Shown in pieces: positions 579 to 22,464 of a stretch of 64,000 bases of DNA (the stretch's first letter is position 1; the number at the start of each line of letters is the position of its first letter). This DNA is from Myxococcota bacterium (GTDB lineage: Bacteria > Myxococcota_A > UBA9160 > SMWR01), in the NCBI GenBank assembly GCA_039030075.1, contig JBCCEW010000007.1, forward strand, positions 1-64,000, written 5' to 3'. A program made the position numbers and the translations under genes. Below the pieces are notes generated by a model that saw nothing but the letters and a program-made list of their open reading frames with translations, made no database searches and was not told where the DNA came from.

Positions 579-585
579 GGTCGCT

Positions 586-714
586 GCCTAACGGCTCAGG
601 TGTTCAGCTGCACCCAGCCGCCGCCGGGGTCGCTGAACCGCCATTGTTTGAAGCCACAGTCTACTCGGGATTGGGGCCTCGCTGCAGGGTGTCAGCTGCA
701 ACGCCTTGTTGGGC
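586..714 (-). repeat. attC: attC recombination site B (129 bp)
   Basis: On the minus strand it begins GCCCAAC (714-708) and ends GTTAGGC (592-586), matching RYYYAAC and GTTRRRY. The outer arms share the CAGCTG-containing sequence with sites A and C. The central about 80 bp differs from the other two sites, so it is a separate lineage of the same attC family. It follows the 192-aa cassette gene. Confidence 0.9.
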
Positions 715-724
715 TGCGTGCGCG

Positions 725-1303: not shown

Positions 1304-1310
1304 TCACGCA

Positions 1311-1436
1311 GCCCAACGGATCAGGCGTTCAGCTGGCGGGGCACCTTGCCGCCGCGGGCTGAGCGCACCCGCTGAGTATGCCAGAAGCCGAGATTGGCGC
1401 GCGCGGACCCCGGTCAGCTGCAACGCCTTGTTAGAC
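1311..1436 (-). repeat. attC: attC recombination site C (126 bp)
   Basis: On the minus strand it begins GTCTAAC (1436-1430) and ends GTTGGGC (1317-1311). It is very similar to attC A along its whole length, including the central GGCACCTTGCCGCC segment, with only scattered differences. It ends the first cassette after attI. High similarity among the sites of one array is typical of chromosomal integrons. Confidence 0.92.
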
Positions 1437-1445
1437 GGCGACAGG

Positions 1446-2003
1446 CTACCAGAACCGCCACCAAGGCTTGCGTAGGTCGTGGAACGCTCTAGGACAGAAT
1501 GATTCGGGTGGCTCCTCGTCGTGCTTGAATGCAGTGACGGCCTTGGCCATCTCTAGCGGTACTTCGAAGATGAAGTCCACCTCGGCCGCATGTGATTGTT
1601 CGTGATCCTGTTCTCGAATGTGCGATCGCTCGATTTCCTGATAGAAGGCGGGGAGCTCCCCAAGCGCTTCGAGGTGGTAGAGATCTAGTTCGCTCTGGTG
1701 CTTGACGGACCAGGTCAACTTTCCTTCGTTCCAGTAGTAAGCCTCGGTCGCCATGACGTGCTCTTCGATCGAACAAGCTACCACCGGATACGAGGCCGAC
1801 AGCGACCGGAGGATCTGCGGCTCAACGAGGCGGCTGCACGAGCGGCCGGCGATGACCAGATACCAACCGTCTCGCCAGATGCCGCCGCAGAGCGGGCTCT
1901 CCCAACGCGGGTCAGCGACCTCTGTGGGCTCCATGGGGACGGCCGCGCACAGCTCGTCTAGGTCCAGGGTCTTGGCGGCAAACCACGACAAGGAGTAGCC
2001 CAC
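1446..2003 (-). CDS. Integron cassette 1 (attI-proximal) protein, hypothetical
   Basis: 185-aa soluble protein starting MGYSLSWFAAK, ATG at 2003, 34 bases inside the attI junction. That N-terminus resembles a family of short cassette-encoded proteins often starting M-x-Y-x-L-S-W that I associate with integron arrays; this is from memory and not confirmed. No signal peptide or TM segment. The middle is rich in Glu and His and the C-terminus is aromatic (PWWRFW). As the first cassette after attI it should be the best expressed if a Pc promoter is present. Confidence 0.75.
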   Translation of the reverse strand: MGYSLSWFAAKTLDLDELCAAVPMEPTEVADPRWESPLCGGIWRDGWYLVIAGRSCSRLVEPQILRSLSASYPVVACSIEEHVMATEAYYWNEGKLTWSVKHQSELDLYHLEALGELPAFYQEIERSHIREQDHEQSHAAEVDFIFEVPLEMAKAVTAFKHDEEPPESFCPRAFHDLRKPWWRFW

Positions 2004-2036
2004 GATCGTCGCGCAACTCCCGAACGGTCTGGCGCC

Positions 2037-2199
2037 GTCTAACAGGTAATCAACGCAGTCGCGGCGTCGGTCAGGCCATCACCCGGAACTCAGGCGAAGC
2101 GTCTGCAAGCCACCGCGGCTGCTACCGAAACCTACCATCACGCCGTCATATTGCGATACGGGGGCTTCGGCGTGTCCTGGATATGGGTGATATGGCAGC
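2037..2199. promoter_or_regulatory. attI: attI region with Pc/Pint promoters (core at 2037-2043)
   Basis: GTCTAAC at 2037-2043 (GTTAGAC on the minus strand) is the junction where cassettes are inserted. The 156 bp between it and the integrase start is the only space between the divergent integrase and the cassette array, so it must hold attI, the integrase promoter and any cassette promoter. I see no clear -35/-10 pair and no SOS-box palindrome (CTGT-N8-ACAG) here, so regulation is unknown. Confidence 0.7.
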
Positions 2200-3210
2200 G
2201 TGGGTTACGCTGAGGTCCTCCCGGTCCCGGGGAGTCTCGCCTTGGCGAATCCGCCTCCTCGGCTTCTCGACCAGGTGCGTCGCGAGCTTCGGGTCAGACA
2301 CTACTCGCCGCGGACCGAGTCCGCCTACGTCCATTGGATCGTTCGGTACATCCGCTTCCACGGTGTTCGGCATCCGAACGAGATGGGCGTGGCCGAGGTG
2401 TCCGCGTTCCTGAGCCACCTGGCCGTGGAGGCGAACGTGGCGCCGTCGACGCAGAACCAGGCGCTGAACGGGCTCGTCTTCCTGTACGGGCCCGTCCTCG
2501 GCCGACCGCTCGGGGAGCTCGCCGGTGTGGTCCGCGCACGCAAGGCCCGAAAGCTCCCCGTGGTGCTCAGTCGCGAGGAGGTGGAACGCCTGCTGATGCG
2601 TTTGGAGGGAAGCCCGCGCCTGGTGGCTTCCCTTCTCTATGGATCCGGTCTGCGACTCCGCGAGGCGCTTCAACTGCGCGTGAAGGATCTCGACTTTGCA
2701 CGCGGCGAGCTGACGATTCGCGAAGCCAAGGGCGGCCGCGACCGCGTGAGCGTCCTCCCGGAGACGCTACACGAGCCGCTGAAGGCACAGATTCGCAGGG
2801 TGCGCGAACAGCATGCGCTGGACCTGTCGGCCAACCGGGGCTGGGTCCCGATGCCGGGTGCCCTGGTGCGGAAGTACCCGAACGCGCCTCTCCAACTGCG
2901 ATGGCAGTTCTTGTTCCCCTCCGCCCGCACCGCCCTCGATCGGCGCACGGGCCGCATCGGCCGCTGGCATTTGGCGGAGAGTTCGGTGCAGAGGCGGGTG
3001 AAGACGGGGGGGGAGGAGGCCGGGATCGCCAAGCGGGCGACCTGTCACTCGCTGCGCCACAGCTTTGCGACGCACTTGCTCGAGCGGGGTCAGGACATCC
3101 GAACCGTCCAGGAGCTTTTGGGCCACCGCAGCGTGACCACGACGATGATCTATACGCACGTACTCAATCGCGGTGGCCTCGGCGTGCGTAGCCCACTCGA
3201 CGCGCAATAG
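2200..3210 (+). CDS. intI: Integron integrase IntI (tyrosine recombinase)
   Basis: 336-aa tyrosine recombinase that inserts and excises gene cassettes at attI and attC sites. An N-terminal SAM-like DNA-binding domain ([20 protein letters not shown]) is followed by the catalytic domain. Catalytic residues visible are Arg152 ([10 protein letters not shown]), His283 and Arg286 (HSLRH), His309 (LLGHRS) and nucleophile Tyr318 (MIYTHV). Residues about 205-245 carry the extra segment found in IntI but not in XerC/D ([17 protein letters not shown]), and the C-terminus GVRSPLD is typical of IntI. The start is GTG at 2200; a TTG at 2239 is an alternative. The frame is intact, so the enzyme is probably active. 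Confidence 0.95.
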
Positions 3211-3288
3211 CGCACGTCGCGAGGGGCTCACTTCGAGCACGGGAGGCGCAGCCGACCGCGCGACCTACGGAGCACTCCCGGTGGTCGA

Positions 3289-3307
3289 GCCCACGCGGAG
3301 CGTGGGC
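3289..3307 (+). terminator. Hairpin after intI
   Basis: Perfect 8-bp inverted repeat GCCCACGC-GGA-GCGTGGGC, 79 bases after the intI stop and just before the tRNA-derived repeat. No T-run follows, so it may be a weak terminator or a protein-binding site. Confidence 0.4.
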
Positions 3308-3309
3308 GA

Positions 3310-3354
3310 TGGCACGCCGGGAGGGATTCGAACCCCCGACCCTCAGGTTCGAAG
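3310..3354. repeat. att repeat 1: 45-bp copy of the tRNA-Arg(TCG) 3' end
   Basis: Identical over 45 bp to 15203-15247, the 3' half of the intact tRNA-Arg(TCG) gene including CCA, and in the same orientation. It stops inside the anticodon arm, so it is not a working tRNA. Such copies are made when an element integrates into a tRNA 3' end. This one marks the outer boundary of the distal island. It shares a further 6 bases (AATCAC) with repeat 2 but not with the tRNA. Confidence 0.9.
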
Positions 3355-3376
3355 AATCACCGGAGGATGAGGAAGA

Positions 3377-4918
3377 TCAATGAGTTACGCCGTCGGGCCG
3401 GCACAGAGCGGCACACGGCGGCACGGAGCGGCAGGAATCGCGGCCCCACGGCCCTATGCGGCCCCTTTTTCCCCGAGACGTCTGATGAACCGGCTCCCTT
3501 CGCACAGGCGTTCCATCGACGATCACTTCGACGATGTCCTGAAGCCGCCGGATATCGTCAGTGGGGTCGCCTCGAACGAGCAGCAGGTCGGCTTGGAGAC
3601 CGACCCGGACGGCACCGAAATCGATTGGCGCCCCGTCGGCGATCCACCGCGCGCTGTCGAGGGTGGCCGATCGAATCGCTTCGGCTGGGGTCATCCCGGC
3701 GTCGACGAAATGCGCCAGCTCACGATGGAGCGCCGCGCCCGGAAACACGCCGGCACCTTGAGGGTCGGTGCCGGCGAGGATGGTCACCCCGGCCCGATGA
3801 AGCTTCATCATGTTGCGCTGGCCGATTCCGAGCACGTCGAGATCCCCTTCCCGGGGACCGCCGATCGATCGGAACTCCCGGAGGGCATCGACGAACTCTG
3901 CCGGCGGCGGATAGAACGACTCGATGACGGCGCGCGGAACCGTTTCGATCTCCATCGGGATCGGATCGATCGGTCGGCTCACCACGCTGACGACCCTATG
4001 CATCACTTCGATCGTGACGACCATCGGGATTTCGAACGCGGCCAGGCGCTGGACGTCAGCGTCCGATAGCGGCTCCCGGGAAACGCCATGAACCCAGAGG
4101 TCGGTCCCGGCCTCGCCAGCATCGAGCGCGTCCTGCAGGCTGCCGATATGGGACACCCAACGAAGGCCGAGCTCGTTCGTCCGCTCGTCGATCGCCGCCA
4201 TCGTCTCGAGCGAGATTCGGGGCGCGCGCGGCGGAATTCGATCGACGGCGACCTTGATCGCGTCGACGCCAGCGGAATGGAGATCATCGATCGCGGATCT
4301 CGCTTCGGACCGCGTCTGGACCTCGTGCGCGATGCCTGAAGTCAGCAGCCACGAGATCCACCAGGGTGCGAACAGCTCGCGGACCGCGACCGGATGGCCA
4401 CCGGGGCAGGTCACCATCTGTCCGGTCGTCAAGATGGCGGGGCCGACGAGTTCGCCGCGCCGGACGGCCTCGCGGCGTGCGACCGCCGCCTTGGTGTCGA
4501 CGTCGGCGGGATCGAACACGGTCGTGACGCCCGCGTAGAGATAGCTCTGCATGTTGGCGAGCGGATCCGCGCCCTCGAGTTCCCAGAACGGCGACCGCGA
4601 GAGACTCACGTGGCCGTGCATGTCGATGAGGCCGGGTAGAAGGGTCGCCCCGCTTCCGTCGATCACGAGGAGACCGTCCGAAGGTATCGTGCCCCCCTTC
4701 TCGATGGCCGCGATTCGGCCCCGCCGGACGACCACGTCGAGCGAGGTTTCGACAACGCCGCGCTCGACCTCGAGGACATCGACGTCTCGAATCAGGAGCT
4801 CGTTCACGGGCCGCGCGGGGTAGCTCACGGACGCTGTCTCCACGTTCGTGGCGCAGGAGAGCAGCGAAGCGGCCAGGGCGAGAATCTGGAACGCAAGGAC
4901 CGGTGAAATCGGTCGCAT
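3377..4918 (-). CDS. Amidohydrolase family lipoprotein
   Basis: 513-aa metal-dependent hydrolase of the imidazolonepropionase/prolidase-like amidohydrolase group. The N-terminus is a lipoprotein signal (LALAASLLSC, Cys about 22), so it is probably anchored in the envelope. The beta-barrel entry GLIDMHGHV gives the HxH metal site; further ligands are likely in WVSHIG, WVHGVS and GTDPQGAG (Asp). Substrate unknown. The last about 40 residues (after VRREPVHQT) are encoded by the island-end repeat, so the native C-terminus was probably replaced at integration. Upstream and divergent is a TetR gene that may control it. Confidence 0.85.
   Translation of the reverse strand: MRPISPVLAFQILALAASLLSCATNVETASVSYPARPVNELLIRDVDVLEVERGVVETSLDVVVRRGRIAAIEKGGTIPSDGLLVIDGSGATLLPGLIDMHGHVSLSRSPFWELEGADPLANMQSYLYAGVTTVFDPADVDTKAAVARREAVRRGELVGPAILTTGQMVTCPGGHPVAVRELFAPWWISWLLTSGIAHEVQTRSEARSAIDDLHSAGVDAIKVAVDRIPPRAPRISLETMAAIDERTNELGLRWVSHIGSLQDALDAGEAGTDLWVHGVSREPLSDADVQRLAAFEIPMVVTIEVMHRVVSVVSRPIDPIPMEIETVPRAVIESFYPPPAEFVDALREFRSIGGPREGDLDVLGIGQRNMMKLHRAGVTILAGTDPQGAGVFPGAALHRELAHFVDAGMTPAEAIRSATLDSARWIADGAPIDFGAVRVGLQADLLLVRGDPTDDIRRLQDIVEVIVDGTPVRREPVHQTSRGKRGRIGPWGRDSCRSVPPCAALCRPDGVTH
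3394..3466. repeat. Island-end repeat, copy 1 (GGCAC-rich)
   Basis: About 73 bp that matches 7024-7096 with only a few differences. It contains several GGCAC or CGGCAC units at short spacing and ends in GGCCCC repeats. Both copies lie about 40 bp from an att repeat, at the same end of each island, so they are probably recombinase arm-binding sites or conserved island termini. Function is inferred from position only. Confidence 0.7.
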
Positions 4919-5260
4919 GTTCTGGTCCTCGGTCGATGGAGAGGGATTTTTGATTGACAGATCGTCATTTTAATATTGTTTTACATTTCGTCAATAAAAA
5001 TTGCAGTGCGACCCGCCGATTCGTCGCTGACCGCCCGAGAACCCCTCTGGATGGAACCGCTCGGGCGCGATGGATCCGCCCGCCCCTTCGCCTCCCTGGT
5101 GGGATCACGCGCCACCGCATATGCCCTTCGCGATCCCGGGCGAACGCCGTTCGTCGACAAGCGTGAGGTTTCGAGACAGCCCCCGCGCAGCCGACTACGC
5201 TGCTGTCGATAGTGACCTCGACGGCCACGGCCTCGAGCGGATCAACGGAGATTGCGCGGC
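4919..5260. promoter_or_regulatory. Divergent promoter region, AT-rich, with inverted repeat
   Basis: The 342 bp between the amidohydrolase and the TetR gene holds a sharply AT-rich stretch at 4948-5005. On the minus strand TTGACG (4994-4989) and TAAAAT, 16 bases apart, make a plausible sigma-70 promoter for the amidohydrolase. Outer arms ATTGAC (4953-4958) and GTCAAT (4990-4995) form an inverted repeat that could be a regulator site. Nothing recognised in the rest. Confidence 0.45.
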
Positions 5261-5830
5261 ATGGGACGCCCGAGCCTCGCCGAACAGCGGCAAGCGGAAA
5301 TACTCGAGGGATTCGAACGGTGCGTACTTCGCGACGGAATCGCGCACACGACGATGACCGCCATCGCGAAGGAGATCGGCTGCCAGCGGACGCTCATCAA
5401 CCACTACTTCGGTGGCACGGACGAGCTGGTTCGTGCCCTCGTCGAGAAACTCACGGAGGACCAGCGGAGGGAGTTTCGTGAGTTCTCGTCCGCTTCGAAG
5501 AAGACCGGCGCTGCGCTGATGGTCGACTACCTGTTCCGACGACTGCCGAAGGGAGGCAACGCGCTCGTTCGTGCGCTGCGTGCGGACGGAGGAAGTTCGG
5601 CGAACGAGAGCCTCGCGAAGATGTACCAGGATTCTGCGAGGCTGCTCGGCACGTTCCTGCAGAGAGAGATCCCAGGAGCGACTCCGGCGCGATGCCGAGC
5701 GACCGCGACGTCGATCGTCTGTCTGGCGATGAGTCGATTCCAGCTCTCGGCCCTCGGCGTACGCGACCGCGAGCTCGCGGGCCTCCGAGCGTCGGCAGAG
5801 ACGCTGATCGACGCGCTCGAAAGCGGGTGA
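5261..5830 (+). CDS. TetR/AcrR family transcriptional regulator
   Basis: 189-aa regulator with an N-terminal TetR helix-turn-helix (residues about 10-55, MTAIAKEIGCQRTLINHYFG then a DELVRAL helix) and an all-helical ligand domain. ATG at 5261 is preferred over an in-frame TTG nine bases upstream because of the GGAG at 5247-5250. It is divergent from the amidohydrolase across an AT-rich spacer, the usual layout for a local repressor. Ligand unknown. It lies inside the distal island between the first and second tRNA-derived repeats. Confidence 0.85.
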   Translation: MGRPSLAEQRQAEILEGFERCVLRDGIAHTTMTAIAKEIGCQRTLINHYFGGTDELVRALVEKLTEDQRREFREFSSASKKTGAALMVDYLFRRLPKGGNALVRALRADGGSSANESLAKMYQDSARLLGTFLQREIPGATPARCRATATSIVCLAMSRFQLSALGVRDRELAGLRASAETLIDALESG

Positions 5831-5906
5831 GCCAGGTTCCTCGCCGCGCGAGCGGTGCCCCGAGCCAGGCCCGGGCAAGACCGAATGTGACCAGATTCAA
5901 TAAGGT

Positions 5907-6485
5907 GTGCTTCAGCGAGGTCGGCTCGCAAATACTTCGAACTGGCATTTCGCGCTCACCGCCGGGTTGATGCCCGTCCTCGCGCCCAGTGCGCGCGTCG
6001 TGGCGTTGAGCTCCGCGGCGCACCTGCGCGGCTCGGTCGACCTCGACGACCTCAACTGGAAGACGCGCGACTACGATCCCAACCTCGCCTACGCACAGTC
6101 GAAGACCGCAAATATTTGGTTCGCATCTGAGCTGCAGCGCCGACACCCGAAGCGCCTGCTATCGCTGTCGGTGCATCCCGGCGTGATCCAGACCGACCTC
6201 GCGCGGCATCTACCCGCCGCCATCGCCGAAGGGATGCGCGAGGGATTCGAGAGCGCGGGCGTGCAGATCAAGAATGTCCCTCAGGGCGCCGCCACCTCCG
6301 TCTGGGCGGCCACGGCCGCCGAGTTCGCCGATCACGGCGGCGCCTATCCACTCGACTGTCAGATCGCGACCCCCACCAGCGAAGAGAACCCGAGGGTCGG
6401 CTACGCGCCCTGGGCGTACGATCGCGAAGGCGCGGAGCGTCTCTGGGCCGAATCCGAGGCGCTCACCGGCGTGCGCTTCGACTAG
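5907..6485 (+). pseudogene. 5'-truncated short-chain dehydrogenase
   Basis: The frame encodes the C-terminal two thirds of an SDR of the retinol-dehydrogenase/WW-oxidoreductase-like type. Visible are the conserved strand ARVVALSSAAH (active-site Ser region), the catalytic YAQSK (Tyr-x-x-x-Lys), VHPGVIQTDL, and a C-terminal cap ending GVRFD. The whole nucleotide-binding half (TGxxxGIG) is missing, and homology starts abruptly at about 5940 in WHFALTAGL, where intact proteins continue upstream with NHLGHF-like sequence. It cannot bind NAD(P) and is best read as a remnant cut by an island rearrangement. Confidence 0.75.
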
Positions 6486-6940
6486 CGCGATTGGCGGTGC
6501 CGCGTCCCTGGGGGAGCAGGACGCCGCGGTAGAGCGGGTTGGCGAGCTCGCGCTCGCGGCGGGACGACGCTGTTCACCGAGGCGGGCGAGCTCATCGCCC
6601 TCGCGAGTCTCTGAGCAGTTCGACCGCGCAACTCCCGAACAGCCTAGCAGGCCTCGAGCCACGATCCGGTCAACGCGGAACCAGCGTCAAGTGGCCGAGG
6701 TGGTCGACTTCAAACAGTGGGGCCGCTCTACGTCGGCGCCCGGCCGTCGCGATCGATCGCGGCCGTGCGGGGCCGTCGATACACGGCCCCGACGACACCG
6801 CAAGCTGTCGTCTTTCTTCAGACGTTGAGCCCGCCAACTCGCTGCATCGGTTAGCGAATCGCGATGGAGAGAGCTTTACGAGCCGGAGGCGAGCCTCAGG
6901 TTCCCACTTTCAGGCTCAGCTCCGGGAATCGCGCAAGTAC
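6486..6940. other. Gene-free stretch at the distal island end
   Basis: 455 bp between the SDR remnant and att repeat 2. Open frames on both strands lack recognisable motifs and look like chance frames of GC-rich DNA. I see no promoter, repeat or RNA gene. Confidence 0.5.
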
Positions 6941-6985
6941 TGGCACGCCGGGAGGGATTCGAACCCCCGACCCTCAGGTTCGAAG
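6941..6985. repeat. att repeat 2: 45-bp copy of the tRNA-Arg(TCG) 3' end
   Basis: Identical over 45 bp to 3310-3354 and 15203-15247 and in the same orientation; the identity with repeat 1 extends 6 more bases. It separates the outer island (amidohydrolase, TetR, SDR remnant) from the inner island (Z1 cluster and integrase chimera), as expected after two successive integrations at one tRNA. Confidence 0.9.
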
Positions 6986-7175: not shown

Positions 7176-8189
7176 CTAGAGGCAACCGAAGAGCCCGCCT
7201 CGCTCACGGACTTCTTGCAGAGAGAGGGGCTTCGCCAGCGAGAAGTCCGAGGAAAACTTGACGCTTGTCACGCCTTTGGGCGGCACACCCGTGATGCGCG
7301 GTACCGAAGACGCATCGAAGAATTCCAGTGACTGGCGAGCGAACTCGATACTGAAGGCAGTCGACTGCAACGAGCGATAGTCGCGCCCGAGCGATGCAAG
7401 GAACACCGAATCGAGGCGCGTAGTCAGTTCCGGATCTCCAGAGGCGTGGGCCGCAAGCGACCCCCACAAATCGCGAAGACTGAGCCCTCCGACAGCTCGC
7501 CTCAGCCGAATCGAAGCGAAAACTACGCTCTCGCCCTGTACAGGGCTCGTCTGCTCGTGGCTTACAACGTGACGTCGGCCCGAGCCTTGGGTGCTCTTCA
7601 CCTCAATGCACGACCACCCTCGCGAGAAGTCGTACCTCTCATCAGTGTCAGAGTGCCACGCGCGAAGCAACTCGCGTGGATCCGCCGACTCGGCGATGAG
7701 GAACATCTCAGCCCAAAGCCCAGAAGCGGACCGGCTTCCACCCGCTGTCGCAGTGCGAAACAGTTCGACCAACCGCGAGAAGCTCTCGGCAAGTTCGCCT
7801 CCAGTGGGCCGGGCAGGGAGCGGCGAGAGCGTCGACGCAATCACCCGGAAGAAGACGTCGACGACGGGAGAGCTTGGCTCCAAGCAGGTAACGAGAGAAA
7901 ACCGTCCAGTCCTCGACGACTCGCTCGAGGAATTGATCGAGCACCGCCTTGAGTGAACGATCGATAGATTCGGAAGAGAGACCGATAGCTGCGGATGAGA
8001 CGAACTCGAGGATGGGACCAGGAGAACAGCGTTCCCGCAAGCGTCTCTAGCGACGTGCCAGTCTTCGCGGTCAGCCAGCTCGTTGCCAACCATGTCGCCG
8101 TCGCCCGCATCTGGCGGGAGAGCAGTGAAACAGTCGACCAGCGAACCCGGTTGACCAAGCGACGGGTTACTGGTCTTGGACGAGGACAT
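7176..8189 (-). CDS. DUF4420 / PD-(D/E)XK motif protein of a Z1-type defence cluster
   Basis: 337-aa protein with the hallmark core of the PD-(D/E)XK motif family DUF4420: SGLWAEMFLI, then WHSDTDERYDF (acidic residue), then CIEVKSTQGSGRRHVVS, in which E-V-K is the predicted nuclease signature. Its ATG lies inside the end of the Z1 gene (23-bp overlap), so translation is probably coupled. Known relatives sit with Z1, GHKL ATPase and methyltransferase genes in restriction-like defence loci. It is the last gene of the minus-strand operon; att repeat 2 lies about 190 bp downstream. Nuclease activity is inferred from the motif. Confidence 0.85.
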   Translation of the reverse strand: MSSSKTSNPSLGQPGSLVDCFTALPPDAGDGDMVGNELADREDWHVARDACGNAVLLVPSSSSSHPQLSVSLPNLSIVHSRRCSINSSSESSRTGRFSLVTCLEPSSPVVDVFFRVIASTLSPLPARPTGGELAESFSRLVELFRTATAGGSRSASGLWAEMFLIAESADPRELLRAWHSDTDERYDFSRGWSCIEVKSTQGSGRRHVVSHEQTSPVQGESVVFASIRLRRAVGGLSLRDLWGSLAAHASGDPELTTRLDSVFLASLGRDYRSLQSTAFSIEFARQSLEFFDASSVPRITGVPPKGVTSVKFSSDFSLAKPLSLQEVRERGGLFGCL

Positions 8190-10359
8190 CCGCGACCACT
8201 TCGTCCGAAAGCCAGAAAACGGGAGCCAGCACGTCCTCGCAAACTATGGTGGATGCATCATCTCTCACCGGTCCATCTGTCAGAGTCAAGAGATGAAGCT
8301 GCAACGTAACGTTCGTGTCCCGCATGCTCCGGTCGCCACCGTAGACTGCGCTATCCCTATGGGCGCCCTGGAGTAGGCGAACGATCTTGTCATTCCGAAC
8401 CTGCCGTCGAGCCCGAAAATTCGGCCTCATCCGATAGATTGCGCACATCTCTCCTTCATGCTCGCTGAGCCATCGGTCCAGCATGACCAACGCGGCTGTG
8501 TACTTCCTGCTGTCTTCCGCATCGGACACACGAATGTCAACGAGAAGATCGCTATAGACCTCGGCAAGTCGCATATAGGCGACGTCGTGAAGGTGATCAT
8601 CCCTACGACCCGGGTGCCCTTCGACCTGCTCGAACCTATCGGCGTTCGACAGCATGAAGCTACGAGCCGATTCTCTATTCGCGTCGACCTCTCCCCGATG
8701 CGGGCTATTCAAAATGCACCACCCGTCTCGGAACAAGGGCCGCGCATAGTCAACGTCGATAACGTTCGCGCGGGTCGGCTGTAGCCGCCTGTCCAGCAGA
8801 AACGCTCGGCGCAAATCCCTTAGCGACTGACCACTTTCGACATGCGCCGCAAGCCGGCCACGCACGTCGTCCTCGTGCACGACATACCGCTGGTACGCCC
8901 GAATGACATCAGTGTCCAGGAATACGCGACAGAATCCCAAGTACGGGCGCTTGTAGCCGAAGAACCGTGCTCTCTGTTGGATCGTATCAGCGTTCCAGAC
9001 TCCGGGCCCGCGCGGCATGTAGGTGACGGTAAGACCCTCGATCGTAAAACCCCGGTCGAGCACTTGGCCCCCGACCAGAATCCACGAGTACTCACGATTC
9101 CATTTGATCTCGCGATTGGCCTGGCGGAGGGAGTTGACCAGTCTGAGTTCAGTGTTCGAAATCGCAGAAAGCAAGTGAACTTGAAGCTCTTCGAACGTCT
9201 CGAGGTCTTCGACGGTCCGCGACAACTCTGCGTGCGCCCGGCGAAACTCCTCCTCGAGTTCCGCACGAGCCGAGTCACCAGGTGGCAGATCGAGGATATC
9301 GGCCCAGAGACGCGTGATCGCCTGCACCCATCCATAGAACTGCGTGTGGTCGCCAGTGTCCTTGGACGGGTGGATCATCATGGAGCGGTTCTTCGGCTTT
9401 TCGTCTCGGCGGAGCCGGCCGGAAGCGACCCCCAGAAAAAACACCTGCATGGCTCGTTCAAGCGAATCCGGCGGGTCGACAAGGGGGTTGGCTGCGCTGG
9501 GGATGTCGGCGGGGGGGATTCCTGCGACTAGTGGAGAACCGTCCGCAAAGAACTCTGGACCGCCCACGTAATCTGAGCCGGGTTCCAACAGGTGCGCGAA
9601 TTCCGGAGAAAGCACGTCAATCAGGTTGATCAGAAGCACCGCTTGTGGCGTCGCCGTGTATTGAAGGAACGTGTGTCGAGGAAGGAGGGCTCGAACTAGG
9701 TTGATGTTCAGATACGTTGTGCTGAGTTCGCCGCGTCTCACCAGTGTGTTAAGGCTAGCTTGGTCGGCCTCGTCGTCGATGATCAACGACGGCACTTGAC
9801 CGATCGCGGCTTCAAGCCGCTCAAGTACCAAGAAGAGATTCTCGAGCCGCCTGTGGTTCTTGAGTACCGTGACCAAAACGGTCCGGCGGTCCTGCTTTGG
9901 CACCGATTCCATTTTCCACTGAGCGAGAACATCCCGTATCCGGGTTGCATCTTCCGGCTCGGGATTGTGTATGTGGTACCAGCTCGGAAAAGTCGATTCC
10001 TCGATTCCGAGATCTTGCGTGAGACGCTCCTGCGATTGGTCCGCGAGCTTCGTCGTCGTTCCTGCAATGACGATGACCAGCTGAAAGTCATTGTCGGCGG
10101 CCATCGCGGCGACGGTCGTGAACGACAGCGTTTTCCCGCTTTGGACGTAACCCACGACCAGGCCAGTAGCACCCTCGGAGTCCGCACTTGGGGAGTTGCA
10201 CTGGCTGAGAATCTCTTGCGCTGCGACCAGGGTGGCGTTCTGGGCGCCGGGATCATCTCCGAGCTTTCGCCTGACGACGCCGTGGGACAGCGGTCCAGCG
10301 CTTGGCTCCCATGAACGCTCACCGGCCGCAACAACGCGAATGACCTCGTCTTGAGACAT
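8167..10359 (-). CDS. Z1 domain-containing SF2-like helicase/ATPase
   Basis: 730-aa Z1 protein. Visible are the Walker A VVGYVQSGKT (Lys76), Walker B LIIDDEADQAS, a motif III-like FLQYTATPQ, and the Z1 signature VGGQVLDRGFTIEGLT followed by the arginine-finger segment QQRARFFGYK. The order matches superfamily 2 ATPases. Z1 proteins are found almost only in defence clusters with a GHKL ATPase and a PD-(D/E)XK protein, as here. It starts 9 bases after the stop of the GHKL gene and overlaps the DUF4420 gene, so the three form one operon. Probably a DNA translocase or helicase. Confidence 0.92.
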   Translation of the reverse strand: MSQDEVIRVVAAGERSWEPSAGPLSHGVVRRKLGDDPGAQNATLVAAQEILSQCNSPSADSEGATGLVVGYVQSGKTLSFTTVAAMAADNDFQLVIVIAGTTTKLADQSQERLTQDLGIEESTFPSWYHIHNPEPEDATRIRDVLAQWKMESVPKQDRRTVLVTVLKNHRRLENLFLVLERLEAAIGQVPSLIIDDEADQASLNTLVRRGELSTTYLNINLVRALLPRHTFLQYTATPQAVLLINLIDVLSPEFAHLLEPGSDYVGGPEFFADGSPLVAGIPPADIPSAANPLVDPPDSLERAMQVFFLGVASGRLRRDEKPKNRSMMIHPSKDTGDHTQFYGWVQAITRLWADILDLPPGDSARAELEEEFRRAHAELSRTVEDLETFEELQVHLLSAISNTELRLVNSLRQANREIKWNREYSWILVGGQVLDRGFTIEGLTVTYMPRGPGVWNADTIQQRARFFGYKRPYLGFCRVFLDTDVIRAYQRYVVHEDDVRGRLAAHVESGQSLRDLRRAFLLDRRLQPTRANVIDVDYARPLFRDGWCILNSPHRGEVDANRESARSFMLSNADRFEQVEGHPGRRDDHLHDVAYMRLAEVYSDLLVDIRVSDAEDSRKYTAALVMLDRWLSEHEGEMCAIYRMRPNFRARRQVRNDKIVRLLQGAHRDSAVYGGDRSMRDTNVTLQLHLLTLTDGPVRDDASTIVCEDVLAPVFWLSDEVVADVLVQDQ

Positions 10360-10368
10360 CCTGCCCCC

Positions 10369-11919
10369 TCAGCTCTTGGATAGTGCGAGTTCGAGAATCC
10401 GACTTAGCTTGATGCGTACAGCCGGGGCGCGTTTCGCTCCACCGTCCCGAGCAACCTTTTCTGCAAGTCCCAACCCTGCGGCGATCCTCACGAGGGGCTC
10501 GAGCTTTACGGCATCGGAGGCTCCGAAGCGCTCTGTAAATGGGTGCGTCAATGCCATTCGCAGGTGCAACGCCTCGCGCCCGTCTGATGATTCTGCATCG
10601 CTCACTTCGAGCCAGCTTCCAACAGCGGGATCATCAACGAGTTCGAGCGTCACCTTCCATCGGCGCTCTTCGAAGTCGATATCGAAATCCCTTGATGTCG
10701 AGAACTCGGCCGGCTGCAAAGCCTCAGGAGGTGACGCCTCGTCGGGTGCTTCCTCCGATGCAGCAAGCAGAGCTTCTTCTCCGTGCTGCTTGAGCGCCTC
10801 CTCGGTCTTCGAGACTGACGTGGCGGCCGCTCTCTGACGGTCTTTGCGGGTGGGGCGGACTCGATAGTTTCGTGCCTGGGAGAGTAGGTCAAGCGCGTCG
10901 GTCGAGATTGCCTCGCGCAGAAGCTCAAGAAACGGCTCTTCGTTGTCGTCCCATTGAAAGCCATCCTTCGTGTGAGAGACGTCAAACCCTTCTAGGTGCA
11001 GCTCGCCGAAGATTCGCTGGTACTCAAAGTCGTTGGCGTTCCCGAAGATCTGCTTCGGTCGATACTTTTCGTCCCCGCTCCCGACAATCAATCTATTCCG
11101 GCGAAACAGTGAGAACCCGGCGTATCTCGTGCTTCCTGTCTTTCGGAGGGCTACGAAACCTCGGGCGCTAAGACCATCGCCGAAATCAAACTCCTCAAGG
11201 TTGTAGCGCCATTCCAGCGCTTCTCCGGATGCTTCATGCGCTGGCGAGAACTTTGGTGCCACCAAGACTTCCGGCTCCTCGTACTGGATGTCTTCGCCTC
11301 GAACGACCAGCTTAAGAGTTCCTGCTCTGAGAAAAACACGGTAGATGTCCGCTAGGTGCTCCTTGATTTTCGAAACTGTCTTGCCGACCGGTGTGTAATT
11401 GAGGTCGAGGAGCTCGATCTCAGTGAAGTGGGAATCCGGATCGCATGGTGTGGCTTCGACTTCGAGCTCTTCCAGCCGGTCATTCACGATCTTGTCGATC
11501 TCGAACTCGACGCGACGAGCGAACGGCTCACCGAGCGCGCTGGTTCGCACCGACCATCGCGCCGCGAACCAGCACGCGGCGCTCTTCATTCCCATCCCGA
11601 ACTCAGACAAACCCTCTCTATCGAGAGGAACCTCTGCCGGGCGAAACGCCCTCGGGAAATCTGCCAGTGGTATTCCCGCTGCGTTGTCACGAATCACGAT
11701 ACGTCCTGGCTCGCTCGCCTCTATGTCGATCTCAACTCGGGTCTTGTACAACGGACCCTCGAGGGCCTGGAGCTTCTTGTCGGAGGCGATTGCGCTCTGG
11801 AGGGAGTTGTCGACGAACTCGGCCAGCGCGAACCAAGGCTTGTAGTTGAGGTGCTGGAGCACCGAGAGCACCGCGACTCCCGGTCGAATGTTCACGCTGC
11901 TTGATTCAGAGACGTCCAT
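10369..11919 (-). CDS. GHKL (MORC/MutL/Hsp90-like) ATPase
   Basis: 516-aa ATP-binding protein. The Bergerat fold is clear near the N-terminus: ALAEFVDNSLQSA (motif N), VIRDNAAGIP (DxGxG-like) and SEFGMGMKSAACW (GxGxK lid). The remainder is an S5-like transducer plus an uncharacterised C-terminal domain with an acidic, Ala/Glu-rich linker near residues 375-415. The start is taken as ATG 11919 (MDVSESSSV), because longer frames would enter the divergent methyltransferase promoter. It is the first gene of the minus-strand operon. Base composition here is visibly lower in GC than the flanks. Confidence 0.88.
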   Translation of the reverse strand: MDVSESSSVNIRPGVAVLSVLQHLNYKPWFALAEFVDNSLQSAIASDKKLQALEGPLYKTRVEIDIEASEPGRIVIRDNAAGIPLADFPRAFRPAEVPLDREGLSEFGMGMKSAACWFAARWSVRTSALGEPFARRVEFEIDKIVNDRLEELEVEATPCDPDSHFTEIELLDLNYTPVGKTVSKIKEHLADIYRVFLRAGTLKLVVRGEDIQYEEPEVLVAPKFSPAHEASGEALEWRYNLEEFDFGDGLSARGFVALRKTGSTRYAGFSLFRRNRLIVGSGDEKYRPKQIFGNANDFEYQRIFGELHLEGFDVSHTKDGFQWDDNEEPFLELLREAISTDALDLLSQARNYRVRPTRKDRQRAAATSVSKTEEALKQHGEEALLAASEEAPDEASPPEALQPAEFSTSRDFDIDFEERRWKVTLELVDDPAVGSWLEVSDAESSDGREALHLRMALTHPFTERFGASDAVKLEPLVRIAAGLGLAEKVARDGGAKRAPAVRIKLSRILELALSKS

Positions 11920-12073
11920 GATCGCTTTCGAGGTCCTAGCGGACCGCTGTAGAACAATTTTCACCTTGGCGTATCTGCGTCGCTCACCGATCCCAGTCAA
12001 CGGGCCAGGGATCGGTTCTGCTACCCTGCTCCTGGGTGAGCTAGTTACGATCATAATTCATGGTGGCGCAGAA

Positions 12074-13285
12074 TTGGGTAAGCGGTCGACACCGCGGGTC
12101 GAACCCCAGCTAGGTGTCTTGTCGGTCTTTTCTGGGATAGGCGGCCTGGACCTCGGATTGGAAAAAGCCGGGTTCAGAACGCTCGCGTGTATCGAGAACG
12201 GGGAGTTCGCGCGGCGGTCGATTCTCCAAAGCCCGCTAAAGCTCCCGTTGCTCGACCAGGGCGACGTCACGAAGGTGGTGGAATCCATTTCTCCACATCA
12301 TTTTGGGCTTCGGGAAAGGGAACTCGCTGTGTTGGCTGGCGGCCCGCCTTGCCAGCCCTTCTCCAAGGCCGCTCAGTGGACGTCGACGGGTCGACAAGGC
12401 GCGGATGACCAGCGCGCCGCTTGCTTCGAGAGCTTTCTTGACCTGGCAGAGACATTCTTGCCACGCGCGGTTCTCATCGAGAACGTGCAAGGATTCGTTC
12501 AGGGCCGAGAGTCCGCGCTTCCCCAGCTTGCATCTCGTTTGAGACGCATCAACGAGGCGCACGGAACGCGCTATGAGCCTCACTGCCGAATTGTCAATGC
12601 GGCCGACTTCGGTGTTCCTCAACGAAGGTATCGAGCAATCGTCGTGGCATTCAGAGATGGAGAGGCCTGGAAGTGGCCGAAGCCCACCCACGCGACCAAT
12701 CCTGTTCGTGCGTGGGATGCGATTGGGCACCTGCGGCTGAAGGACGACGAGTACCTTCCACTACGGGGCAAGTACAAAACCTTGCTGCCATCAATTCCAG
12801 AGGGTGCCAACTACTTGCACTTCACCGAACGGGGACGGGGCAGGTACAACCTATTTGGCTACCGAACCAGGTACTGGTCCTTCTTGCTAAAGCTTGCGAA
12901 GAACCAACCAGCCTGGACCATTGCCGCAAGCCCGGGCCCCGCAACGGGCCCCTTCCACTGGGACAATCGACCCCTATCGTTGCCGGAGCTGCTGAGGCTG
13001 CAGAGCTTTCCGGCGGAGTGGCCTGTTGAGGGGCCGAGGCGTGAGAGGATCAGGCAGATCGGAAACGCGACGCCGCCTTTGCTTGCTGAAGTTCTTGGAC
13101 GTTCCATTGCGCAACAAGCCTTTGGGTTGAGCTGCGCACGGGGTCCGGCGCTGCGAATCTCGCGCAGGAGAAACATTCCCGCTGCACGCCGAGCTCGGCC
13201 ACTTCCGACCGAGTGGGTGGCTCGACACGGGAAATACAAGGCGCATGCGGGCGAAGGGGCTGGGCCGATGCCGCGGACCAGCTAG
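12074..13285 (+). CDS. DNA (cytosine-5-)-methyltransferase
   Basis: About 403-aa C5-methyltransferase transferring a methyl group from SAM to cytosine in a target site. Motif I is FSGIGGLDLGLEKAGF, motif IV GGPPCQPFS with nucleophile Cys93, motif VI LIENVQGF, motif VIII PQRRYRAIV and motif X QIGNATPP. The start is uncertain: TTG 12074 keeps the usual short lead before motif I; longer frames would overlap the divergent ATPase promoter. It probably protects the host from the Z1/DUF4420/GHKL cluster divergently encoded next to it. The last about 50 residues are basic and not conserved. Confidence 0.9.
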   Translation: MGKRSTPRVEPQLGVLSVFSGIGGLDLGLEKAGFRTLACIENGEFARRSILQSPLKLPLLDQGDVTKVVESISPHHFGLRERELAVLAGGPPCQPFSKAAQWTSTGRQGADDQRAACFESFLDLAETFLPRAVLIENVQGFVQGRESALPQLASRLRRINEAHGTRYEPHCRIVNAADFGVPQRRYRAIVVAFRDGEAWKWPKPTHATNPVRAWDAIGHLRLKDDEYLPLRGKYKTLLPSIPEGANYLHFTERGRGRYNLFGYRTRYWSFLLKLAKNQPAWTIAASPGPATGPFHWDNRPLSLPELLRLQSFPAEWPVEGPRRERIRQIGNATPPLLAEVLGRSIAQQAFGLSCARGPALRISRRRNIPAARRARPLPTEWVARHGKYKAHAGEGAGPMPRTS

Positions 13286-14382
13286 TTCACACCGGATGCA
13301 CCTTACGGTGCAAGGCGTAACCCCGCTCCACTGATAGGAAACGTGCGTAGTGCGGGCAAGTTACGTTCGAGCCTCCCAACACGCCAAGTGATCGATATCT
13401 CTCCGCTATCGGCGTCTTACATGGAGACGGCGAGACACATATCGGCGTATGAGTTGTCGCGGAACAGCTTGACGCCACACTTTTCGTCGATACGTTGATG
13501 ACATGCGCAAGAGCAACCAGCTCCGAGAAGACGGCATCCGGGGCCCACCGGAGTTCGCCCGTCCCAACCCCCTCGACTCGCGGGAATCGAGTCGATCGAG
13601 ACGCCAGAGCTGCGAGAGGCGTCTTGGGGGGAGGGGCGAATCTCACGGACAACAGAATTGGGGCCGGACCGGCACCCCGGTCGAGTTTCAAGAACGAAGC
13701 TCGTTTTCCTAACTCTAGCCATGGGCGTCCTGAACCCCAGACGACCTCTCGCTCCTAAAAATCCGATTCGCGATATCGCGAGACGACAGACATCAACCTT
13801 TCGCCCGGAGGAGTGCCGGCGAGAAGTGGAACCAGAAGGTCGACCACTCCCCGCTCGGCACTCCCGGATAGCGAACTCGCCGACGCAGCGACTGCAGACC
13901 GCGTCTTGTCGGAGCGAACGCCCCGAACAACTCGCCGCACCCGCGAATCGCCGGCCCCCTCGGACTCGGTTGGCTTGGCATGCCAACTCTGCGCACAAGG
14001 CCCCTTGCCTCGACAGCGTGAACTAGTCGTCGCTGCCGAAGTAAGAACGACACCGCCCGTGTTGGGCTGCGCCAAGGTGCTCTTCGCGCGCAGTCCCGAA
14101 TGGGCGGTGGAGTTCGCGACCCTACGACTTGTCAGCGCGTTGACCTACGTCAACGCGCTGCAAAACCCTCGCTGTCGTCTCTCTTCTCGACTACCACGAA
14201 GATTCATACCGATCAACGGATTCCCCGCCGGACGCTAGGCGCTCCGCCACTTGCGTCTTATTGGCAAGGTGCGCAACTGTACAGGCGCCGGTCCGCGAGA
14301 TTCTACGTCTGTGGGAGCCTCGAGCGCTTCACGTCGTGAACACAAGATTCCCGCTCGACTACCCGCTCAGACCCCACCCCAG
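13286..14382. other. Long stretch without a convincing gene, island interior
   Basis: About 1.1 kb between the methyltransferase and the relaxase-integrase chimera. Frames of up to 193 codons exist on both strands but overlap each other, have no motif and no good ribosome site. A perfect hairpin TGCACC-TTAC-GGTGCA at 13297-13312 lies just after the methyltransferase and may end its transcript. A second, stronger inverted repeat lies at 14133-14160. The stretch is probably the scar of a deletion that removed most of an integrative conjugative element. Confidence 0.5.
14133..14160. repeat. Perfect 12-bp inverted repeat with 4-base loop
   Basis: CAGCGCGTTGAC, CTAC, GTCAACGCGCTG. It ends 222 bases before the relaxase-like start codon. 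No T-run follows. Inverted repeats of this size occur next to nic in the oriT of MobF systems, so it may be an oriT remnant; a terminator or operator is equally possible. Confidence 0.6.
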
Positions 14383-15252
14383 ATGATTGCGTTGCTCTCA
14401 CTCTCGGCGGGTATCGCGGCGGGAGGCGACCGCTACTACGCCGACCTTGCTCGCGAGGACTACTACTTCGAAGGCGGCGAGCCACTTGGCGAGTGGCACG
14501 GGAAGGGCGCTCAGAAACTCGGCCTCTTCGGAACCGTCCAGAAGGGCGAACTCCGCGACGCTTTCCTCGGCTTCGCCTACGGCACCCCCCTGAATCAGAA
14601 GGCCGGCCGAAACGAACCAGACTCTCGCGGGTACAAGCCGATCCGCGCCTGGGACGGGACGTTCAATGCGCCGAAATCGGTATCTATCGTTCGCTTCGTA
14701 GCGGACGAGGATATCGGGACAAAGGTCCAGCAGGCTCACAAGGAAGCTGTTCGAGCCACGCCGATGACCGAAGGCCTCACCGAAGAGCTCTTCGATCTTT
14801 TGGCCGAGCGCCGCAAGGAAGGGCTCGCCCGAGGCTGGTCTGAGACTCCCGAGTGGGTCTTCTGCACGGAGACGGGAACCCAACCTCAGCCGAGAAACGT
14901 CGAGCGCGTCTGGTACCGCTTGAGGCGGCGCGCCCAGAAGCTCGGCGTTCGGCCTCTGAAGCTCCACTCCACGCGCCACACGTGGGCGTCCATGGCGCTC
15001 CAGGCGGGCAAGAGCATCCGGTGGGTTGCCGAAGTTCTCGGTCACTCCGACCCGGCTCTCACGCTCCGCGTCTACGCCCATGCGATGCGCGACGAAGAGC
15101 GCGACCTCTCGTTCGCTGACTTCTCGCGAGACCCCGAACGGCCCTATACGGCCCCGGCGCGTTTCGCTGATGACGAGCAACTCGCTAAGTCTGCGGAAAG
15201 ACTGGCACGCCGGGAGGGATTCGAACCCCCGACCCTCAGGTTCGAAGCCTGA
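14383..15252 (+). pseudogene. Chimeric MobF relaxase N-terminus / tyrosine integrase C-terminus
   Basis: One open frame of 289 codons. Residues about 1-122 match the start of TrwC/TraI (MobF) relaxases: YYADLAREDYYFEGGEPLG with a tyrosine cluster, then WDGTFNAPKSVSIVRF, the conserved APKSVS element; the metal-binding HxH motif that should follow is absent. From about residue 125 it becomes the catalytic domain of a phage-type integrase: HSTRHTWAS (His-x-x-Arg), WVAEVLGHSD and nucleophile Tyr in LRVYAHAM. The last residues, ARREGFEPPTLRFEA, are encoded by the tRNA-Arg 3' end itself. Most likely a deletion fused two genes of an integrative conjugative element; the product lacks the relaxase core and the integrase N-terminus. 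Confidence 0.8.
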
Positions 15253-15279
15253 TGCTCTATCCAGCTGAGCTACCGGCGC
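15203..15279 (-). tRNA. tRNA-Arg(TCG)
   Basis: 77-base tRNA on the minus strand with CCA encoded. The acceptor stem GCGCCGG pairs with CCGGCGT (one G-U pair). The anticodon loop is CTTCGAA, giving anticodon TCG for CGA codons. D- and T-arms (GGTTCGAATCC) are standard. Its 3' 45 bp (15203-15247) is the attachment site copied at 3310 and 6941. The chimeric integrase reads into it, which leaves the tRNA intact. Confidence 0.97.
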
Positions 15280-15396
15280 GCACTAGTCCCCAAGGGCGCC
15301 GGGAGATTATCGCCTCGGCCATCCGGATGCTCGTGCGAGCCCCCCTGCCCTGCGTGCGGATTCACGGAGGGCCGGTGATCGCTGTCCGACGGCCCC

Positions 15397-17112
15397 CTAC
15401 CGCACTGCCCGGAAACCCCGGCGATCGGGGTCGTCGTCGGATCGGCCCGACTTCATCGCTTCGAGCTTGCGGGCCAGGGCCTGGGTGTCGAAGGGCTTCG
15501 GAAGGAAGCCGGCGAGCTCGTCGCCCGCAAAGGAGCCGGTGGCTTCGTCCTCGTCGTACCCACTCATCAGCACGACACGCGCCCGGCCGCCGATCGCCCG
15601 GATCTCGCGGAATACCTCACGCCCACTCATCCCGGGCATCGTCATGTCGAGGAGTACCAGGTCGAGGTCAGCGCTCCGCGCGCGGTACACCTCGAGCCCG
15701 CGCGGCCCGTCTTCCGCCACGGTCACCACGCAACCCAGGTGCTTCAGCATGCGTGCGGTGGCGTCGCGTACGGTGACGTCGTCGTCGATCACCAGCACGC
15801 GCAGGCCCTGGCTATCGCGCGGCGGTGCGGGCTTCGGCAGGTCGGCCACCTCACCGCGCCGTCCGGCGGGCAACTGAAACCGGAAGGTCGTGCCGCGGCC
15901 GGGTTCGCTCTCCATCGTGAGCACCCCTTCGTGGCCGCTGACGATGCCCTGCACCGCCGCCAGGCCCAGCCCGCGCCCGTGCGGCTTGTCGGTGTAGAAG
16001 GGGTCGAAGATCCTCTGCTGCACTTCCGGCCGGATTCCGCGGCCCGAGTCGGAGACGTCGAGGCTCACGTACTCCCCGGCCGGCCGCTCGCGCCCGACCA
16101 TGGCACCGTCGATCGTGTCGCGATCGAGACGGGCCACCCCGGTCGATACGGTGATCGTCCCGCCCGGCTTGTCGATCGCCTCGGCCGCGTTGAGCACCAG
16201 GTTCATCAACAGCTGACGGATCTGGGTGACGTCCACCCGCACCAGCGGCAGGTTCAACGCGAGGTCGAAGCGCACCCGCGCGGTGCGCGCGATCGACACG
16301 TCCAGCAGCTGCATCATCTCTTCGACGACCGCATTCAGATCGACCTCGGTCACCAGGAAATGCCCCTTCCCGGAGTACGCGAGCATCTGCTTCGCGAGCT
16401 CGGCCGCGCGCGCGGCCGTCGTGTCGATCTCCTCGAGGTAGCGACGCACCGGCGAGCCCAGCGGCGCTTCGAGGAGCGCGAGGCTCGCGTTGCCCGTGAT
16501 CCCCACGAGCAGGTTGTTGAAGTCGTGGGCGATGCCTCCCGCCAGGAGTCCGAGGCTCTCGAGCCGGTGCCCTTCGAGCATGCGCCGCTCTGCGGCCACC
16601 CGCTGGTTCTCGGCGTCGCGCGCCTTCATCTCCGCGCCCACCAGCGCCGCAAACAGGCGAAACAGCGAGCGACGCTCGATGCCTTCTTCGATCGGGCGAT
16701 CGTGGACGACGCCGAGGTGCCCGATCGTCGCTCCCGCTGCGTTCGCAAAGCAGATTCCGAGGTACGACTCGGCACCCACCTCGACCAACCAAGGGTCTTT
16801 CGGATAGGCCGCCTGCACGCCGGACCGCACGATGCAGATCTCGTTCTGGTAGACGTGCTCGCAAGGCGTGCCAGCGAGTTCGTAGGTGAAGTTCGACTGG
16901 AACGCGCCGGCCTGCCAGAAGACCAACGTGCGTGCGCGTCCCGGGTCGTCCGGTTCGATTTCGGCGGCGAAAGCGCAGCTCATCCCCAGGGTTTCGGTGA
17001 GCCCCTGGATGGCCGCCTGCAAGCTCGGGAGGCCGGGCGGTGCGTCGCTGACATCGAGCAGCCGCTCGAGCACCGTGGGGTGGAGTTCTCGCTCGTTCCG
17101 GGAGTGCGGCAT
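15397..17112 (-). CDS. Hybrid sensor histidine kinase / response regulator
   Basis: 571-aa cytoplasmic hybrid kinase without TM segments. Residues about 25-170 form a GAF-like sensor; a HisKA segment follows with GGIAHDFNNLL (phospho-acceptor His about 200). The HATPase domain shows LLMNLVLNAAEA (N box), DSGRGI (G1) and GRGLGLAAVQGI (G2). A C-terminal receiver domain (about 435-555) has IDDDVTV and the phospho-acceptor Asp in LLLDMTMPGM, with Lys in FLPKPF. The HDFNNLL type autophosphorylates and passes phosphate to its own receiver. No output gene is adjacent. It lies just outside the tRNA island, in what looks like core chromosome. Confidence 0.93.
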   Translation of the reverse strand: MPHSRNERELHPTVLERLLDVSDAPPGLPSLQAAIQGLTETLGMSCAFAAEIEPDDPGRARTLVFWQAGAFQSNFTYELAGTPCEHVYQNEICIVRSGVQAAYPKDPWLVEVGAESYLGICFANAAGATIGHLGVVHDRPIEEGIERRSLFRLFAALVGAEMKARDAENQRVAAERRMLEGHRLESLGLLAGGIAHDFNNLLVGITGNASLALLEAPLGSPVRRYLEEIDTTAARAAELAKQMLAYSGKGHFLVTEVDLNAVVEEMMQLLDVSIARTARVRFDLALNLPLVRVDVTQIRQLLMNLVLNAAEAIDKPGGTITVSTGVARLDRDTIDGAMVGRERPAGEYVSLDVSDSGRGIRPEVQQRIFDPFYTDKPHGRGLGLAAVQGIVSGHEGVLTMESEPGRGTTFRFQLPAGRRGEVADLPKPAPPRDSQGLRVLVIDDDVTVRDATARMLKHLGCVVTVAEDGPRGLEVYRARSADLDLVLLDMTMPGMSGREVFREIRAIGGRARVVLMSGYDEDEATGSFAGDELAGFLPKPFDTQALARKLEAMKSGRSDDDPDRRGFRAVR

Positions 17113-21150: not shown

Positions 21151-22464
21151 ATGTGCGACTCGGTGGTGGCGCTGGGGGTCGAGACGCGTCGGGGGCACAC
21201 CCTGTTCGCGAAGAACAGTGATCGGGAGGGCGAGGAGTGTCAGCCCTTCGTCCAGCATCCGGCGGCCCACCACGCCCCGGGATCGACGCTGCTGTGCACC
21301 CACATCGAGATCCCCCAGGTGGCCGAGACCTACGCCGTCATGGGTCACTCGCCGTGGTGGGTGTGGGGCCTCGAACACGGCGTCAATGAACATGGCGTCG
21401 CGATCGGAAACCACACGGTCTTCTCACGAGAGCCGGTCGAGGAAACGTCCGGTCTGATCGGGATGGACCTCGTCCGCCTTGGTCTAGAGCGCGGTCGCAC
21501 CGCGCGTGAAGCCCTCGAGGTGATCGCGACGCTGCTCGAGACCCACGGACAGGGGGGCGCGGCACGCGGTCCCGACGGCACCGGCTACCACAACAGCTTC
21601 CTGCTCGCCGACCCGGGAAACGCCTGGCAGCTCGAAACCTCGAACCGCCGCTGGGTCGCCCGGCAGCTGCGGCTCGGCGCCGTTTCCAATCACTACGGAC
21701 TGGGCAACGGGTGGGACATCGCCTCGCGCGACTTCGAGGCCTGGGTGCGCCAGGAAGGCTATTGGCGCGAGCCGTCCCGGGTCGATGTCGCGAACGCACT
21801 GCGCAACCCGCACGTCCCTGGGCGTCTTTCCTCCGGTCGCCATCGCCGCTCGCTCGAACAGCTCGAGACCGGACGCGGCAGCCACGATGTCGCCTCGTTC
21901 TCTCGCCTGCTGCGCGACCACGACGAGGGCGGACCGGTGTGGAGGGGCCGCGACGCCAACCCGGAGGAAGAGCGCTTCTTCACGCTCTGCGCGCACAGTG
22001 ATCCGGTCTTTCACACCACGGCCAGTCTCGTGGCCGAGCTGCCTACGCAGCGCCCCTTCGCCTGGCCTGTGTGGATCGGGTTCGGCAGCCCCTGCACGAG
22101 TGTGCTGGTGCCGGTCTACCTCGATGCAACGCTGCCCGGCTGTTTCGCGCGCAGCATCGACATGCCCGATGCCCCTGCCCTCTGGCCCCGTTTCAAACGG
22201 CTCGAGCTGCTGGCAGCGCGCGATCCAGAACGATCCACGCCGCTGGCACGGGCGGCTTGGCAGCGCTTCGAAGCGTCGGTCGACGAGCCGCGTGAAGACA
22301 TGGAGCGCGAAGCCCGAGCCGCCCATCTGGCGGGTCAGACCGATCGGGGGCGGGCCATCCTCGACGACTTCGTGGACCGCATGACCGCGGATCTACTCGG
22401 CGAGCTCGTGTCCGTGACCGACGCGCTCGGAACCGAGGCCCCGGAGATGGTGGCCTCGCCCTAG
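21151..22464 (+). CDS. C69 family peptidase (secernin-like dipeptidase)
   Basis: 437-aa Ntn-hydrolase of peptidase family C69, secernin branch. The protein starts MCDSVVALG; Cys2 becomes the N-terminal nucleophile after Met removal, as in this family. Other family segments are LFAKNSDRE, EHGVNEHGVAIGN, and the substrate-pocket region YHNSFLLADPGNAWQLETS. No signal peptide, so cytoplasmic. Likely cleaves dipeptides or similar amides. It follows the hairpin of the previous gene and is convergent with the small HTH gene. Confidence 0.88.
   Translation: MCDSVVALGVETRRGHTLFAKNSDREGEECQPFVQHPAAHHAPGSTLLCTHIEIPQVAETYAVMGHSPWWVWGLEHGVNEHGVAIGNHTVFSREPVEETSGLIGMDLVRLGLERGRTAREALEVIATLLETHGQGGAARGPDGTGYHNSFLLADPGNAWQLETSNRRWVARQLRLGAVSNHYGLGNGWDIASRDFEAWVRQEGYWREPSRVDVANALRNPHVPGRLSSGRHRRSLEQLETGRGSHDVASFSRLLRDHDEGGPVWRGRDANPEEERFFTLCAHSDPVFHTTASLVAELPTQRPFAWPVWIGFGSPCTSVLVPVYLDATLPGCFARSIDMPDAPALWPRFKRLELLAARDPERSTPLARAAWQRFEASVDEPREDMEREARAAHLAGQTDRGRAILDDFVDRMTADLLGELVSVTDALGTEAPEMVASP

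Follow-up and report, generated by a model that had tools for sequence, protein, structure and literature searches.

The question raised by this locus is whether an open frame that begins as a conjugative relaxase and ends as a tyrosine integrase encodes a hybrid protein, or is what remains of two genes in a genomic island. It lies in the window analysed here, a stretch of 64,000 nucleotides from a Myxococcota bacterium (assembly GCA_039030075.1, contig JBCCEW010000007.1), where a single frame at 14383-15252 on the + strand runs for 289 codons from ATG to stop, or 337 codons counted from the preceding stop. The evidence makes it very probable that this frame is a chance in-frame scar in a decaying island.

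Both halves are recognisable. When the frame is opened at the upstream TTG at 14251, Pfam finds PF08751 (TrwC) at residues 57-170 (profile positions 2-112 of 286, E = 1.8e-21) and PF00589 (Phage_integrase) at residues 160-278 (profile positions 59-168 of 172, E = 3e-13); as sequence matches, both assignments are far beyond chance. Numbered from the ATG at 14383, the frame aligns with TrwC (PDB 1omh) over residues 17-126 and with the integrase of PDB 3nkh over residues 123-242. Relaxase similarity stops at about T126 and integrase similarity begins between R124 and P127, which places the joint at codons 124-127, bases 14752-14763. Strong integrase alignments in related genomes mostly start at fusion residues 123-126; a few start at residues 90-100, where the relative's own sequence up to TPKSGK is stretched across relaxase letters. 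The fusion is thus made up as follows:

14383-14760, + strand: MobF/TrwC-type relaxase N-terminus, about 126 codons (Pfam PF08751; alignment to TrwC 1omh)
14752-14763, + strand: stretch holding the joint (end of relaxase similarity, start of integrase similarity)
14761-15252, + strand: tyrosine integrase C-terminus, about 163 codons and the stop, with its 3' end within the tRNA gene (Pfam PF00589; relatives of 60-64% identity)

A preliminary description, made from the letters of the window, had read the frame as a relaxase start followed by an integrase end. The Pfam and PDB alignments bear this out, and the junction that it placed near 14755 falls inside the mapped interval. It was right about the relaxase start and too short in its extent, since relaxase sequence goes on beyond APKSVS, where it had been ended, to about residue 126. 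The integrase does run to a tRNA-encoded end, as proposed: the frame ends inside a tRNA-Arg (TCG) gene, of which its tail crosses the 3' part in antisense (15203-15279, - strand). GC3 is 0.74 in the relaxase half and 0.78 in the integrase half, as against 0.65-0.69 in neighbouring cargo genes and 0.88 in one host gene, values that do not separate the hypotheses. A consensus scan, which other types of promoter escape, found no sigma-70-like promoter in 13280-15400, and an AlphaFold model of the single fusion sequence was unusable (mean pLDDT 38.2).

Each half lacks essential parts of its parent enzyme. On the relaxase side, similarity ends at TrwC residue 117 in the alignment to 1omh and the histidine motif is missing; in a second relaxase of the same genome (L002) the corresponding DPHLHAH stretch falls after the position of the joint. 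The histidine triad of MobF relaxases binds metal. What is kept (query residues 17-126) includes a tyrosine aligned with TrwC Tyr18, the catalytic tyrosine of that enzyme. On the integrase side, relaxase sequence stands in place of the N-terminal core-binding domain. All nine reference integrases carry, before the position of the joint, both an arginine region (GxRRGE or GCRKGE) and a TPKSGK/TPKNGK beta-lysine motif, and the fusion has neither. It retains, in alignment with the same references, HSTRHT, LGHSDP and VYAH, the HxxR, H/W and Tyr nucleophile boxes, and 38 of the 39 columns that are invariant among them. The absence of the relaxase HxH site and of the N-terminal DNA-binding part of the integrase, noted earlier, is confirmed by these alignments; the loss extends further than had been claimed, to the first half of the catalytic domain with Arg I and the beta-lysine motif. 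With the integrase N-terminal domains, Arg I, the beta-lysine motif and the relaxase histidine motif all missing, neither relaxase nor recombinase activity should be expected of the hybrid, judging from what is generally known of the two families.

The surroundings of the fusion are those of an island. It forms one end of an 8.3-kb element inserted at the tRNA-Arg gene, with 47-bp direct repeats at both ends:

15203-15279, - strand: tRNA-Arg (TCG), the insertion site (ARAGORN; Rfam RF00005)
15201-15247, + strand: att copy at the tRNA (47-bp direct repeat)
6939-6985, + strand: att copy at the far end of the 8.3-kb element, 100% identical (47-bp direct repeat)
3310-3354, + strand: third att copy, 45 bp, 100% identical (direct repeat)
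3255-3353, + strand: tail of another integrase of the same family, the rest missing (tblastn with the integrase of L006, residues 385-417, 54.5% identity)
7176-8189, - strand: DUF4420, putative PD-(D/E)XK protein, cargo (Pfam PF14390)
8167-10359, - strand: Z1-domain protein, cargo (Pfam PF10593; PADLOC Helicase_II)
10369-12054, - strand: GHKL-type ATPase, cargo (Pfam PF13589)
11846-13285, + strand: C-5 cytosine DNA methylase, cargo; start uncertain, the domain beginning at residue 91 of the listed frame (Pfam PF00145; PADLOC MTase_II)

The presence of three att copies and of a second integrase tail indicates at least two successive insertions at this tRNA-Arg. The frame before 6939 also reads into the tRNA-encoded end, and the residues ahead of that end have no significant match. 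Between the cargo and the fusion lie six ORFs (13287-14238) without a Pfam match, one searched at a cut-off of E 0.001 and five at E 0.5. Among 11 ORFs of the element (the four cargo genes, the fusion and these six, shorter and shadow ORFs being left aside) no match to coupling-protein or type IV secretion families was found.

The cargo at 7176-13285, a cluster of DUF4420, Z1, GHKL ATPase and cytosine methylase genes, resembles a restriction-modification or defence system. Further left, a second att-bounded segment (3310-6985) codes for an amidohydrolase and a TetR-type regulator and contains an ORF whose dehydrogenase match is weak and partial; no integrase belonging to this segment could be recognised. 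The leftmost att copy at 3310 adjoins a chromosomal integron that occupies window positions 1-3210, the contig starting at base 1. An integron-type integrase with SAM_4 and Phage_integrase domains lies at 2200-3210 (+) and is taken, on its sequence features, to be IntI; a motif script found three attC-like sites (171-294, 586-714 and 1311-1436), with at least one ORF between sites.

The fusion is known from one copy. Among 97 genomes of relatives, its own included, only its own place in the window covers both halves. Plasmid searches matched 67 records, none at 80% query coverage. Of 135 phage records matched, one reached 80% coverage, at 23% identity; it is annotated xerD and was not counted as a fusion. 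The three loci found in the genome_contigs collection included none that matches the relaxase half, and the single locus in viral contigs covers residues 186-239 only. The search for recurrence in other genomes, which the preliminary description had proposed as a check, was therefore negative in relatives, plasmids, phages, genome_contigs and viral contigs, and likewise in the phylum when the relaxase half was used. A literature search by fusion phrases, in the partial texts that it returned, found no paper on a natural relaxase-integrase fusion. PMC6049929 deals with domains swapped by engineering between a relaxase and a viral integrase, which is a different matter from a natural tyrosine-integrase fusion.

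Truncated relatives of the integrase half, by contrast with this single fusion, are abundant. The family integrase was matched in 41 of 90 genomes of the class (E 1e-20 or better), and many of the matches are C-terminal only. When 27 partial loci were fetched again with more DNA, 16 proved truncated in spite of the presence of DNA for the missing part (among them L096, a middle fragment), nine were too near a contig edge and two keep N-terminal sequence. Ten frames of partial copies hold integrase domains as their only Pfam family, two of the ten being without any match. One of the two that keep it, L084, shows an internal deletion that stays in frame and is confined to a single integrase, so that in-frame scars do arise. 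It shares with L070 (G034:C37 and G022:C21, respectively) a large internal deletion ending at the same RRAQ(K/T)LGVRPLKL stretch, the frame being kept in L084. The 18 copies that are truncated or cut retain between 22 of 27 and 39 of 39 conserved columns. A further locus, L024 (Deltaproteobacteria bacterium isolate Meg19_02_Bin_151), has 389 bp over the tail and the tRNA in common with the window at 78% identity, and matches a second stretch of 362 bp at window positions 21205-21563. Given these two shared stretches, L024 probably represents the chromosomal site of the fusion, its integrase having been shortened in another way; L080 shows the same translation, and both were taken as one genome. 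No gene common to the neighbourhoods of family integrases could be established (L030-L034, L036 and L041): in L030 a DUF3987/Toprim protein lies upstream of the integrase and in L031 an AAA_25 protein does, no Pfam match came from the ORFs examined in L032, L033, L034 and L041, and L036 is surrounded by a transposase and housekeeping genes.

The relaxase half is rare. It was matched in two of 97 genomes of relatives, two of 90 of the class and two of 377 of the phylum, always its own genome and G022; these sets overlap and each includes its own genome. The match in G022 is 36% identical in the phylum search, and the second, separate relaxase of the genome itself, on contig C1, is 34% identical by tblastn (40% in another listing). 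The best plasmid matches reach about 42%. The parent genes of the fusion were not found in these searches. The ten family-integrase neighbourhoods that were compared with the relaxase of the fusion's own genome (L030-L036, L039-L041) are all devoid of a MobF relaxase. No family integrase was matched in the relaxase neighbourhoods L037 and L038, where, the relaxase excepted, no protein convincingly matches the element. Relatives accordingly lend no support to one parental element as the source of both genes. The earlier attribution of the two genes to an ICE is likewise unsupported, with no coupling or secretion match among the 11 ORFs of the element and no MobF relaxase in the ten integrase neighbourhoods. 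In L038 (9127-13761) and L037 (6939-11536) the MobF relaxase is paired with a divergent gene with a GxxGSGKT-like start. The pair is conserved in the two genomes, at 49% and 45% identity, and the partner has no Pfam match.

How might such a frame arise? The starting state would have been a tRNA-Arg-specific integrative element, or two elements brought together at that tRNA. The DNA from about codon 126 of a gene for a MobF relaxase to a point midway through the catalytic domain of the integrase would then have been lost, and the joint would have kept the frame by chance, with a prior of one in three by frame alone. The product, if made, would neither nick nor recombine DNA, and the island would thus stay where it is together with its restriction-like cargo. 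We infer the deletion that would have produced the joint, the inactivity of the product and the arrival of the relaxase on the same element as the integrase. The event had been described as a precise in-frame deletion; the in-frame joining of relaxase and integrase stands, whereas its precision does not, as the position of the joint is known only to within about 12 bases and one random joint in three would keep the frame.

The origin as a scar draws support from the incomplete state of both halves, from the att repeats and the motifs that are lacking, from how rare the fusion is and how common 5'-truncated relics of its integrase family are, and from the empty sigma-70 promoter scan. Against it count the 289 codons without a stop, the 38 of 39 columns kept and the lack of visible decay in the retained part, which fit a young scar and also selection; moreover, the parents were not found, the deletion itself was not seen and the ten integrase neighbourhoods held no MobF relaxase. 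The same open frame and retained columns, together with a plausible ATG opening the relaxase N-terminus, could be read as signs of a functional hybrid, a protein that is expressed and uses one of its halves to bind att or oriT-like DNA, where it might for instance inhibit excision or transfer. However, conserved columns are retained to a comparable degree in truncated copies of the family, so that this figure shows no more than that the scar is recent when measured against the family as a whole. Moreover, the catalytic parts of both enzymes and the N-terminal DNA-binding domains of the integrase are missing, the promoter scan was empty, and the fusion does not recur in plasmids, phages, viral contigs, genome contigs or the 377 genomes of the phylum. 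A working hybrid, which the preliminary description had allowed for, is therefore improbable, the recurrence search having turned out negative. Its domesticated form, in which the relaxase DNA-binding start and the integrase tail would act together on att or oriT, for example as an inhibitor that keeps a defence-type island unmobilised, seems more improbable still.

Misassembly of two separate genes deserves about as little credence as a working hybrid. The genome is a draft of 55 contigs, but no close second copy of either half exists in it, the other matches sharing 30-40% identity, and the contig extends over 264 kb; a repeat-driven misassembly is therefore unlikely. The least probable reading is that the frame belongs to a natural family of relaxase-integrase fusions so far undescribed. 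Both domains are indeed recognisable in one frame; nevertheless, no second member appeared in any collection searched, the literature search by fusion phrases led to no paper, and the joint lies inside the catalytic domains of both partners rather than between domains.

As a chance scar, the fusion matters little as a gene and represents an ordinary product of island decay. It illustrates clearly the decay of tRNA-targeting islands, in which the 5' part of the integrase is lost and the att-overlapping tail persists. Where a genome is GC-rich, a scar of this kind can appear as an open chimeric frame, and annotation can then list it as a fusion protein. Some mild interest attaches to the number of 5'-truncated integrases in the class, as they bear on the fixation of defence-type cargo. 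A hybrid that worked would constitute a new type of mobile-element regulator.

Three known types of sequence come closest to the frame. Like the MobF conjugative relaxases, it has an N-terminus of about 126 residues that aligns with TrwC and TraI and retains the tyrosine opposite Tyr18 of TrwC, but it stops before the histidine motif and has no helicase part. Its last 163 or so residues resemble tRNA-targeting tyrosine integrases, with HxxR, H and Y boxes, and its C-terminus overlaps the tRNA att site as does that of the complete integrase of L006; unlike these enzymes, it has no N-terminal domains, first catalytic arginine or beta-lysine motif. It is similar to the 5'-truncated integrase relics of islands in having kept the tail and lost the 5' part, with cargo and att repeats around it, and differs from them in that the sequence in frame ahead of the tail can, by chance, be recognised as the start of a relaxase.
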